Positions 26,781 to 45,551 of a stretch of DNA of 64,000 nt are shown here, in pieces (the stretch's first letter is position 1; every line of letters begins with the position of its first letter). The notes beneath the pieces were generated by a model. It ran no database searches, was not told where the DNA came from, and saw nothing but the letters and a program-made list of their open reading frames with translations. The stretch lies in IMG/VR virus record IMGVR_UViG_3300031918_000005, positions 62,001-126,000 of that record; one strand, given 5' to 3'. The translations under genes were made by a program, and so were the position numbers. The stretch is from a virus.

Positions 26781-26822
26781 TAATCTTTAATTATTTAATC
26801 TTTAATTATTTAATCTTTAATT
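26781..26822. repeat. Tandem 15-bp repeat overlapping the terminase-fragment end
   Basis: The unit TAATCTTTAATTATT occurs 2.8 times (26781-26795, 26796-26810, 26811-26822). On the minus strand it reads as repeated TAAATAATTAAAG, close to the late-promoter motif. It contains the stop codon and last residues of the terminase-intein ORF. Confidence 0.8.
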
Positions 26823-27279
26823 CCATATATCTCTTAAGTTTGAGTAGAAATAATAAGGCGGTATTCTTTTTGTAGTAAAATATATTTTCAAACAATTCTT
26901 TCATTGTTATATTATCACCATTAACTGTTATAATAGTTCCACCATCTAAACATTTTCCTGACTGTCGGCTTGATAGAAATATATTAAAGCGGTAATTTTC
27001 AAATTGTTTAAGTACTCTAGATTGGTATGGTCTAAGGATTATCTTCTCAATACCATTATCTGTCATACAAAATGCATAATTATTAGCAAAATAAAGACAC
27101 GATTTTTGTATTTTTGCTAATTCAATAATTTCCTCGTCTGTATATTGATAATGAAGAAAAGCTTTTCTTTTTCTCGTATCTTTTAAGAAAAAAGGGTTAT
27201 CTCTTGGTAAAAAACCAGTTTTGTTATAATCATCTATAATATTTTTTACCTTTTCTGAATCATATATATTACCTTCCAT
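26806..27279 (-). CDS. terL: Large terminase N-terminal fragment fused to a split N-intein
   Basis: A 157-residue fragment of the DNA-packaging ATPase. The start is ATG 27279; a TTG 28 codons upstream is also in frame. The terminase part shows YTDEEIIELAKIQKSCLYFA, then IILRPYQSRVLKQF and the P-loop start SSRQSGK, as in T4 gp17 (SRQLGKT). The expected Ser/Thr after GK is replaced by Cys at 26950-26952. The sequence then reads CLDGGTIITVNGDNITMKEL, which fits intein block A. A basic helical tail of about 25 residues follows, then a stop. This is a short atypical split N-intein, like the TerL split intein AceL that I recall. The ATPase active site can only form after trans-splicing to a C-intein/terminase partner, which is not in this window. 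Confidence 0.85.
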   Translation of the reverse strand: MEGNIYDSEKVKNIIDDYNKTGFLPRDNPFFLKDTRKRKAFLHYQYTDEEIIELAKIQKSCLYFANNYAFCMTDNGIEKIILRPYQSRVLKQFENYRFNIFLSSRQSGKCLDGGTIITVNGDNITMKELFENIFYYKKNTALLFLLKLKRYMELKIK

Positions 27280-27386
27280 ATAATTTATTTTTAATGGTAT
27301 TCCTTGATTAGCGAGAGGTACTTTCCTTGTATTCTGATAATTTTTATGATATAAACACCCCAAAGAACATAGAAATTAAAAGAAAA

Positions 27387-28604
27387 TCACCAAAGAGAGT
27401 TGAATGTTATTAATGATGAAGGTATCTCTTTTAGACCTATGGCAACAAGTATTCTATTGATATACGACAGATAATTTGACATAAATTGTATATCATATGA
27501 TACTGGATATTTTTGTAAAAACTGTGGTGGTATAACTCCAATAGGGAATGCAAAAACATCAATTATGGGGCTTGTTGTATAATACCATTGTATTTTATCA
27601 CCAGATTTTATTATAGAATATTTTTGTTTTATTTCATCAGGTGCAAGCGATATTTCGTTATTGTATTGAGCAATCGCTCTGATGTGAATAGGAGAACCAG
27701 CAACGTATTTTATATTATTATCAGAGCATTCAAGTATATATTTACCAAGATTATTAACTCTTTGAGTACTTAATATATTAATTATATCTATATGTGTGAA
27801 TTCTTCTTTTATGTTCCTGATTTTATCAACAATAATATTATAATCTATAATATCTGTCTTAATTATACAGTCAATTATAATTTCCTTAAGTTTTTCACGA
27901 ATAAATTTAGGTACAGATGTTTGATTCATTTCAAGACCAATAGCCTTTACATTTTCATATCTTCCAAATGTTGTTCCATTTTCCCAAATAAGTTCCTTAA
28001 CATATCTTTTTTTAGATGATATCAAGAATTTACCTATAATTTGTTCAAATGTTAATTTAAGGCACGGCATACCCGATATTCTTTTTTGGAATCCACCATG
28101 TAAACTTATGAAATGAGACAACATATGCTCAAGTGCTGGATATAAGTCGATTTTGTTTAATTTCAGGACAAAATCTTCAATAGTACCTTTATAATCAGTA
28201 TGGCTAATTATCTTACCATAATTTACAAACACCGAATCAGTATCACCATAAATTACAATATCTTCAGTTATTGGAGTAACATATGTTATACCAAGTTGTT
28301 CATGAATATGTGGTATATTAGGAAATCTTTCCTTGAAATATTTATTAAACCAAAATTTGGTGTACTTTATAACGTATGCCGATTGAGTAGATATAGAAGA
28401 AGCTACATATTTGTCATAAAGTATAAATGAAGAAAACCCAAATACGCCATATATAGAATTGAGGATTTTCTTTAAAGATAAATCCTCGCTCTTTTTTGAA
28501 AATTGTAAATTTTGAAGTCTAGTTATTTCATCATTGATTTCTTGTTCAGTTACTTCTTGACCTTTTTCAAACTTACAGTATTTTAAATCCAAATCATATA
28601 TCAT
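27387..28604 (-). CDS. 43: Family B DNA polymerase, C-terminal fragment
   Basis: A 405-residue fragment carrying the second half of a T4 gp43-type polymerase. It has motif B (KKILNSIYGVFG, residues 45-56), motif C with the catalytic Asp residues (YGDTDS, 119-124) and the thumb-like KRYVKELIWENG and GLEMNQTSVPKFIREKLKE. The 3'-5' exonuclease domain and motif A (DxxSLYPS) are absent; the ORF begins about 45 residues before motif B with its own ATG. I see no intein block at its start. The missing half must be encoded elsewhere, as in T4-like phages with separate 43A and 43B genes. Its ATG lies one base after the methylase stop. Confidence 0.88.
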   Translation of the reverse strand: MIYDLDLKYCKFEKGQEVTEQEINDEITRLQNLQFSKKSEDLSLKKILNSIYGVFGFSSFILYDKYVASSISTQSAYVIKYTKFWFNKYFKERFPNIPHIHEQLGITYVTPITEDIVIYGDTDSVFVNYGKIISHTDYKGTIEDFVLKLNKIDLYPALEHMLSHFISLHGGFQKRISGMPCLKLTFEQIIGKFLISSKKRYVKELIWENGTTFGRYENVKAIGLEMNQTSVPKFIREKLKEIIIDCIIKTDIIDYNIIVDKIRNIKEEFTHIDIINILSTQRVNNLGKYILECSDNNIKYVAGSPIHIRAIAQYNNEISLAPDEIKQKYSIIKSGDKIQWYYTTSPIIDVFAFPIGVIPPQFLQKYPVSYDIQFMSNYLSYINRILVAIGLKEIPSSLITFNSLW

Positions 28605-43344: not shown

Positions 43345-44322
43345 ATGAATTATTACAATTTATTACAATGGTATAATAAAAATAAAAATTGTTATTTTAT
43401 TAAAAAAGGTGCTAAAGATTCAGAAGAATATACAAAAATTTTAAGTTTAACTTCTTTCCTTAATGAATATTATGATACAATTTCTCTATCTCAAAGAATG
43501 TGGCATATAGAAAATGATATATTTGAAATTCAAAAATGTGAAATATGTGGAAATATTGTAAAATTCGAAAGACACATAAAATATTATAAAACATGTTGTA
43601 AAACATGCAATATAAAATACAGAAATTCTGATGAATTAAAACAAAAAACAAAAAACACTAATATTGAAAGATACGGTGTTGAATGGAGTCAACAATCTGT
43701 TATTATTAAACAAAAAATGATTGATAACAACATTAAAAAATATGGAGTTGTATCCACTTCTAAATTACAAAATGTTAAAAACAAAATGTTAAAAACAAAT
43801 TTAGAAAAATATAGTGGAACTGGATTTGCAAGTGATAAAAACAGAGAAAAACAGAGAAAAACAATGATTGAAAGATATGGAGCTGAAAATCCAAGTTTTA
43901 TCACATCAATATTACAAAGAGGTCATTTAACCAAAATCAAAAACAATTCTTATCAAAAATCAAAGGAAGAAGATGAATTTTATCAAGATTTAGTATTATT
44001 GTTTGGAGAACATAATGTAATTAGACAATATCAAGATGAAAGATATTATAACAAAATCACAAACAAAAAATTTGTTTGTGATTTTTATGTGAAAAGTTTA
44101 GATTTATTTATAGAATATGATGGTCATTGGTCACATAAACCACAGTATTTAAAAGAGAAAGAAAGAAATGAATTTATTAAAAAACTTAATAATAAAAACA
44201 CAGAATATTCACAAAGTATGTTGAAAGCATATTATAGAGATATTGAAAAAAGAAATATTTCAAAAATCAACAATTTAAACATTGAATTTGTACCAAGTAA
44301 CAAATTATTAAGGCACATTTAA
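43345..44322 (+). CDS. Free-standing homing endonuclease with zinc finger and Vsr-like domain
   Basis: A 325-residue protein on the opposite strand to its neighbours. Residues 28-75 match the N-terminal domain of the 39882 endonuclease (LTSFLNEYYD, QRMWHIENDIFEIQKCEICG, then a CCKTCN pair). Residues 95-185 contain four short DNA-binding-like repeats of the pattern NxxKYGVxxxSK (IERYGVEWSQQS, IKKYGVVSTSK, LEKYSGTGFAS, IERYGAENPS). The C-terminus has KKFVCDFYVKSLDLFIEYDG and HWSHKPQ, a Vsr/EDxHD-like nuclease core. Base composition is even richer in A than its surroundings, suggesting recent transfer. Its stop overlaps the stop of the convergent 44873 gene. Confidence 0.83.
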   Translation: MNYYNLLQWYNKNKNCYFIKKGAKDSEEYTKILSLTSFLNEYYDTISLSQRMWHIENDIFEIQKCEICGNIVKFERHIKYYKTCCKTCNIKYRNSDELKQKTKNTNIERYGVEWSQQSVIIKQKMIDNNIKKYGVVSTSKLQNVKNKMLKTNLEKYSGTGFASDKNREKQRKTMIERYGAENPSFITSILQRGHLTKIKNNSYQKSKEEDEFYQDLVLLFGEHNVIRQYQDERYYNKITNKKFVCDFYVKSLDLFIEYDGHWSHKPQYLKEKERNEFIKKLNNKNTEYSQSMLKAYYRDIEKRNISKINNLNIEFVPSNKLLRHI

Positions 44323-44876: not shown

Positions 44877-45551
44877 TCAACCTTTAGTTTTTTTATTTAT
44901 TTTATAAATTGTTTTGTGTAACCAATATTCAAGTTTTGTTAGTAATGATTTCGATTCCATATTTTTATAATACAATTCAAAAATAGATATCTTCTCAAAT
45001 TCCGATATTTGTGTGTTGAGTATGTCAACATCTGTATCATATGTTACACAATTATGAACCAACAATCCATCAGCAATAAACATATGAAGCTTATCATCAA
45101 TTGTTATGTCAAATACTTTATGTTTACCATTCAATAATTCAACTGATTCAATAATATCAAATTTACCTTCGGCATCGGTAAGACAATATTCATTCATTAC
45201 ACAATCTTCCAAATGGCTTTTCAATCGTTTTGTTGAAAAGTATGTATTTTTAACAACGACTGTATTTCTTACAATACAGCAAGGAAATATATGGTCTTCA
45301 GTAGCTTGTATTATTTTACCAGTTTTAGTGGTTATTTTACACAATTCTTTTTTACCATTATAATGTACATGAGTTATTTTTGAAATTCTTGTTTTATCTA
45401 TATTAACAAAGTAACCAAAGGGTTCTATTTTATAAGACCTTTGGTTACTATATATTATAACATCTTCAATCAAAGATATCAAATATATGATAAGCTTAGG
45501 GGAAAAATTTTTACACGATGTTTTTTGTAACTTCGACATAATCTTCATCAT
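44877..45551 (-). CDS. Stand-alone intein polypeptide: C-intein joined directly to an N-intein
   Basis: A 224-residue ORF with little or no host-protein sequence. Residues 38-90 look like a split C-intein start (YKIEPFGYFVNIDKT) with block B, IQATEDHIFP (T84, H87). Residues 144-160 fit block F (HKVFDITIDDKLHMFIA), and 161-168 block G, DGLLVHNC (H166, N167, C168). C168 then begins VTYDTDVDILNTQ and KISIFELYYKN, which matches block A of an N-intein. A basic helical tail follows, like the tail on the terminase N-intein. Residues 15-38 (SPKLIIYLISLIEDV) are a hydrophobic acidic stretch that may pair with such tails. The start is uncertain: ATGs at 45551, 45548 and 45539 overlap the upstream gene. 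Confidence 0.78.
   Translation of the reverse strand: MMKIMSKLQKTSCKNFSPKLIIYLISLIEDVIIYSNQRSYKIEPFGYFVNIDKTRISKITHVHYNGKKELCKITTKTGKIIQATEDHIFPCCIVRNTVVVKNTYFSTKRLKSHLEDCVMNEYCLTDAEGKFDIIESVELLNGKHKVFDITIDDKLHMFIADGLLVHNCVTYDTDVDILNTQISEFEKISIFELYYKNMESKSLLTKLEYWLHKTIYKINKKTKG
45411..45448. other. 11-bp hairpin inside the intein ORF
   Basis: GTAACCAAAGG (45411-45421) pairs with CCTTTGGTTAC (45438-45448). It lies about 63 bases after the stop of the DUF4494-like gene, so it could be that gene's terminator within the 5' part of the intein ORF. Confidence 0.5.

Follow-up and report, generated by a model that had tools for sequence, protein, structure and literature searches.

The described systems closest to the locus reported here are the two-piece split inteins of the AceL-TerL/VidaL type (the AceL TerL intein is mentioned in PMC7891396), which sit at the P-loop site of the terminase large subunit (TerL) and consist of a very short N-terminal intein half (IntN) with a helical tail and a long C-terminal half (IntC) with a leader helix, often with a free-standing homing endonuclease between the two. 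In the laboratory, three-segment tandem trans-splicing has been built from two orthogonal split inteins and a middle piece of the form IntC-extein-IntN (PMC12707363). The window analysed here, a stretch of 64,000 nucleotides covering positions 62001-126000 of the 167,485-base virus record IMGVR_UViG_3300031918_000005, encodes a protein, termed the adapter, in which an IntC is fused directly to an IntN with zero extein residues between them.

This natural, conserved and extein-free IntC-IntN protein probably bridges two orthogonal split inteins, so that two trans-splicing reactions, sharing one cysteine and possible in either order, would restore the motor ATPase from three polypeptides. The three polypeptides would be an N-terminal TerL piece carrying a first IntN (TerL-N-IntN-A), the adapter (IntC-B-IntN-B) and a second IntC followed by the TerL ATPase (IntC-C-TerL-ATPase). 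The underlying architecture, two inteins stacked at the P-loop lysine (SRQSGK/S), each of them split and bridged by the adapter, is predicted from sequence with good confidence.

The pair IntN-B and IntC-C belongs to the AceL-TerL/VidaL type: it lies at the P-loop site, its IntN is short and bears a tail helix, and its IntC has a leader. The locus departs from these atypically split inteins in that TerL-N lacks the matching IntN, which is carried by the extein-free adapter instead, and in that a second split intein stands in front. As in the laboratory design, the middle piece has its IntC at the N-terminus and its IntN at the C-terminus; unlike that design, the adapter is natural, one Cys is shared, and the middle extein is of zero length, so that the piece would be wholly removed. 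The best solved-structure matches of IntC-B, by sequence and by fold, are DnaB-type mini-inteins (Ssp DnaB; PDB 1mi8 and 6frh), which differ from it in being contiguous and in residing in a helicase; the identity of about 20% denotes a class resemblance only. The initial annotation knew of no described natural IntC-IntN polypeptide, and neither such a polypeptide nor stacked inteins turned up in the literature searched, which lay mostly outside subscription journals.

Anatomy of the adapter

The adapter open reading frame (ORF) occupies positions 44877..45551 on the minus strand and encodes 224 amino acids; it has a homologue in another phage (L024:1462-2121). Residues 1-167 (45051..45551, minus strand) are IntC-B, which ends in LLVHN and has the block B motif TEDH at residues 84-87. 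The intein part proper covers residues ~18-167, with VHN at its C-terminus, and opens with a leader helix, PKLIIYLISLIEDVIIYSN (residues 18-36; 45444..45500, minus strand), which was delimited by alignments, is helical in an AlphaFold2 model and resembles the leader of ordinary TerL IntC fragments (KIILxLIxLIEKIEY). Residues 51-167 align to positions 33 through 155, the last, of the Pfam profile Intein_splicing (PF14890; E 1.8e-8), indicating that IntC-B is without just the N-terminal ~32 positions of an intein. The match of the NCBIfam model intein_Cterm stops exactly at Cys168 (30.9-31.2 bits, cut-off 15.6), and the block B part scores 28.9 bits against the NCBIfam model intein_Nterm. The adapter therefore presents the C-terminal half of a class 1 split intein, with TEDH at 84-87, HN at 166-167, Cys168 and an intein_Cterm score above the cut-off.

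The splice junction, His166-Asn167/Cys168 (45048..45056, minus strand), is invariant in both adapter homologues. Cys168 counts both as the +1 residue of the intein before it and as Cys1 of the one after it, the C-terminal motif of the first and the N-terminal motif of the second sharing this single residue. The initial annotation had read the junction in this way, with a first intein ending at VHN, and both the end point of the intein_Cterm match and the conservation of the junction bear it out.

The remaining residues, 168-224 (44880..45050, minus strand), form IntN-B, which reads CVTYDTDVDIL...ISIFELYYKN followed by a tail. Against the TerL-IntN profile, which aligns to residues 1-53 of this segment, it displays the Cys1, block A, strands and split-point end of the N-terminal half of a class 1 split intein, and it is the sole significant match of the 51-member profile in all frames of the 167 kb record (18.7 bits, E 1.6e-4). 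IntN-B alone is undetected by the generic intein_Nterm model. The tail contains a basic/hydrophobic helix, LTKLEYWLHKTIYKINKK (residues 203-223; 44883..44945, minus strand), again helical in the AlphaFold2 model, which is probably a docking helix for an IntC leader. Its pattern is common to TerL IntN fragments, and the likeness claimed earlier between this tail and that on the terminase fragment holds, since both tails, as well as those of ordinary TerL IntN, are basic/hydrophobic helices. That residues 168-224 might instead be a host protein or a random tail is ruled out by their homology to TerL IntN together with the finding of zero Pfam or PHROG family matches; the normal host-protein family that could have overturned the annotation was not found in these databases.

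The AlphaFold2 model of the adapter alone adopts a Hint fold (mean predicted local distance difference test score, pLDDT, 72), in which the IntN-B blocks mostly reach 77-84 and the IntN-B strands are ordered. Its top structural neighbours in Foldseek are inteins. The model shows both parts to be intein-like; it provides no evidence that they react with each other. A second copy of the adapter, 100% identical, is present in another assembly (L013), and a diverged one in the related phage G006. Because these copies are independent, the adapter is neither a chance ORF nor the product of an assembly error.

The terminase pieces and pairing of the intein halves

TerL-N and the attached IntN-A are encoded at 26806..27363 (minus strand; homologue L026:1495-2001). 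The ORF matches the PHROG terminase large subunit and covers TerL up to the P-loop (SRQSGK137); translation probably begins from the ATG codon at 27279 (residue 29), as in the relative. TerL-N stops inside the P-loop, at SRQSGK, and IntN-A begins there with CLDGGTIITVNGDNITMKELFENI...; this half has 48 residues (CLDGGTIITVNGDNITMKELFENIFYYKK...; 26809..26952, minus strand) and is the predicted partner of IntC-B. The further C-intein-TerL ORF whose existence had been proposed as a check was found outside the window, at record positions 129227-130303 (plus strand): IntC-C ends in LSHN and is followed by SIISGIFIMWYLL, that is, by TerL from the P-loop Ser onward. Since TerL-N ends in SRQSGK and this ORF resumes at Ser, joining the two restores SRQSGK/S, and their coverage of phrog_2 is in phase (positions 256-290 and 292-463, respectively). 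The genes of the three pieces are spread over about 41 kb.

Ordinary TerL inteins provide the reference for pairing. The same lysine marks the TerL break in the jumbo phage LR756500 and in about 50 IMG/VR contigs, which have only the two pieces TerL-N-IntN and IntC-TerL; both gaps that were inspected between the halves (L022, L031) hold a free-standing homing endonuclease-like ORF. An ordinary IntN consists of about 30 residues and a helical tail, and the IntC, whose solved relatives are gp41-1 and VidaL, opens with a helical leader. A few TerL inteins of the reference set are unsplit; in three unsplit inteins of the same family (L178:9869-12541, L203:5458-7860 and L222:5404-8040) the IntN tail is continuous with the IntC leader helix, and they probably display the helical hairpin that was later cut in the split forms.

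Canonical TerL profiles were built from 51 IntN and 76 IntC members, the window phage and its relative being left out. Against the IntN profile, IntN-B scores 23.8/25.8 bits (window phage/relative, here and below) versus 7.2/19.2 bits for IntN-A. Held-out canonical IntN all reach at least 21.0 bits; in both phages IntN-A scores lower than every one of these 51, and IntN-B falls at the low edge of their range. Against the IntC profile, IntC-C scores 63.0/64.8 bits versus 21.1/23.5 bits for IntC-B. With the generic intein_Nterm model, IntN-A placed on IntC-B beats IntN-B placed on IntC-B by 5.4/8.1 bits, and the intein_Cterm cut-off is passed by IntC-B and failed by IntC-C. In the window phage, the combination of IntN-A and IntC-B exceeds both generic cut-offs (31.1 bits, cut-off 24.5; 31.2 bits, cut-off 15.6); in the relative, it scores 23.4 bits with intein_Nterm, just under the cut-off, and 21.9 bits with intein_Cterm, above it. 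These scores support IntN-A and IntC-B as the halves of one generic, DnaB-like intein, and IntN-B and IntC-C as those of an ordinary TerL intein. The homology classes thus favour the pairs IntN-A:IntC-B and IntN-B:IntC-C over IntN-A:IntC-C and IntN-B:IntC-B. Further, the combined profiles and Pfam recognise two IntN, two IntC and no others in the 167 kb record, a closed set. The correlation of distance profiles is mildly supportive (0.33/0.27 for IntN-B with IntC-C; -0.09/-0.01 for IntN-A with IntC-C).

The single ordinary C-intein-TerL ORF that would have fully matched the terminase N-intein, and so undone the annotation, is therefore present in appearance only, because IntC-C matches the IntN of the adapter instead; for the same reason the idea that this ORF makes the adapter superfluous is disfavoured. 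The proposal that TerL is rebuilt from three pieces through the adapter is supported by the profiles and by the second phage for the sequence up to the end of the ATPase piece; it does not extend to the nuclease domain, which is an additional, separate ORF (L007; record 151754-152593, plus strand), 21 kb from the ATPase piece. At the nuclease break neither intein halves nor an obvious intron were seen, and the inteins would therefore bridge the P-loop break only.

Several observations weigh against this pairing. The IntN fragments are short, so that the class calls depend on few bits, and in the relative IntN-A, at 19.2 bits, is barely under the canonical range. The tail of IntN-A and the leader helix of IntC-B resemble those of the TerL family, and IntC-C is a divergent family member without the usual block F histidine. 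The distance-profile correlation is weak: IntN-B also reaches about 0.3 with the IntC-B of the relative, and true family partners have a median rank of only about 8 among 49. Searches of PDB profiles with the four combinations of IntN and IntC gave no discrimination. It may be that intein 1 (IntN-A and IntC-B) is a diverged paralogue of the TerL intein, with cross-reaction between the halves.

Conservation in a second phage

The same set of three pieces, TerL-N-IntN, adapter and IntC-TerL, is present in phage G006. Its adapter (L024; near copies L028 and L030) is 49% identical and keeps the junction VHN/CVTxDT. The junctions of this phage are SRQSGK/CLSGDSIITVNN... in TerL-N, VHN/CVTADTGIEILN... 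in the adapter and LSHN/SITSGIF in IntC-TerL. Between the adapter homologues, Thr84, His87, His166, Asn167 and Cys168 are unchanged, and across the intein halves of both phages Cys1, the block B His, the penultimate His, the Asn and the +1 residues are retained. IntN-B is the best-conserved part of the adapter (64.9% identity), with a ratio of non-synonymous to synonymous differences (pN/pS) of 0.32 and pS near saturation. The halves of intein 2 have diverged more slowly (IntN-B 64.9%, IntC-C 74.5% identity) than those of intein 1 (56.2% and 43.8%), and the agreement of rates within each pair supports the pairing of IntN-B with IntC-C and of IntN-A with IntC-B.

Proposed mechanism and origin

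From these features we infer partner choice in the cell, the splicing itself and the order of the reactions as follows. IntN-A would pair with IntC-B, and TerL-N would be spliced onto Cys168. IntN-B, now on TerL-N, would then pair with IntC-C, and TerL-N would be spliced onto Ser+1, with restoration of GKS. Cys168 would serve first as the +1 acceptor and then as the Cys1 nucleophile, departing with intein 2, so that the product would hold zero adapter residues. In the reverse order, IntN-B and IntC-C would first join IntC-B to the TerL ATPase, and the same product would result if IntC-B tolerates Ser at +1.

The simplest route of origin would be the insertion of a second intein directly before the resident TerL intein, the resident Cys1 being reused as +1, after which the newcomer was split. 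Tandem inteins at one site, already suggested in the initial annotation, are supported by sequence as the best reading, and two tape-measure ORFs, L280:465-8975 (minus strand) and L268:9667-12240 (plus strand), provide an independent precedent for stacking. Each contains two contiguous inteins with an extein-free junction, at which one Cys (residue 1019 in L280 and 718 in L268) ends the first intein_Cterm motif and starts the second intein_Nterm motif. These pairs are stacked as in the adapter, with one Cys as +1 and Cys1; they differ from it in being unsplit, in one uninterrupted gene for another host protein, and cis-splicing. L280 with both inteins removed aligns uninterrupted to Pseudomonas phage KT1. 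The first intein of both pairs bears an HNH nuclease-like insert, and the L268 ORF ends early, soon after its second intein starts. DNA scans for further VHN/C-xxDT junctions returned for the most part chance matches or ordinary inteins followed by an extein that contains Cys, L268 and L280 being the exceptions.

If this mechanism is true, the locus represents a natural protein assembly in which one required component leaves zero residues in the product. It would also offer a ready orthogonal pair of split inteins with very short IntN, together with a traceless 'linker' by which splicing is made to depend on a third part, of use in logic-gated protein assembly. In intein homing, an occupied site is normally immune; the adapter would show how inteins can nevertheless stack at such a site.

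Alternative explanations

An unlikely alternative is a one-step reaction in which IntN-A pairs directly with IntC-C; the adapter would then be a circularly permuted intein, complete in itself, that serves as a decoy, a regulator or a relic. IntN-A and IntC-C do sit on the two TerL exteins, their junction residues (C1, S+1) are mutually suitable, and the adapter alone is predicted as a complete Hint domain with inteins as its top Foldseek neighbours, with the caveat that AlphaFold2 would dock nearly any IntN. However, this pairing mismatches both halves by homology class, in both phages, and gives no account of the abutment of IntC and IntN with zero residues between them; nor would a relic be expected to retain all catalytic residues, with its IntN the most conserved part (pN/pS 0.32).

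It is considerably less probable that the adapter serves another protein, with IntC-B or IntN-B pairing with halves on a different fractured gene or in the host. The DnaB-type likeness of IntC-B makes a source other than TerL plausible, and the genome has further split genes, such as that of the DNA polymerase; against this, the phage record contains zero additional IntN or IntC, and the breaks in the DNA polymerase and the TerL nuclease are intein-free. That all halves are inactive remnants, TerL-N and the TerL ATPase functioning as separate chains, is very improbable, since the break within the P-loop leaves GK and S on different chains and the splicing residues are kept in both phages, even if the ATPase and nuclease of TerL are already separate genes in the window phage.

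Genomic surroundings

Compared with these alternatives, the bridging of two stacked split inteins by the adapter is the preferred reading, and the neighbourhood of its genes has further features. Two genes from the adapter, at window positions 43345-44322 (plus strand), lies a free-standing homing endonuclease-like ORF (phrog_3339, DUF7487), which is missing at the equivalent place in phage G006. A repeat of 116 bases, within a tail-fibre-like gene, is common to both ends of the record (1-116 and 167242-167485), the right end having two tandem copies. The phage genome may therefore be nearly complete, though IMG/VR labels the record linear and its ends share nothing beyond this repeat. DNA polymerase B is encoded in two genes, at window positions 27387-28604 (minus strand) and record positions 131677-133158 (plus strand), and its break carries zero intein halves. 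The gene for the C-terminal part of the polymerase is directly beside TerL-N, and that for the N-terminal part is a few genes from IntC-TerL, which suggests that a single rearrangement broke both DNA polymerase B and TerL.
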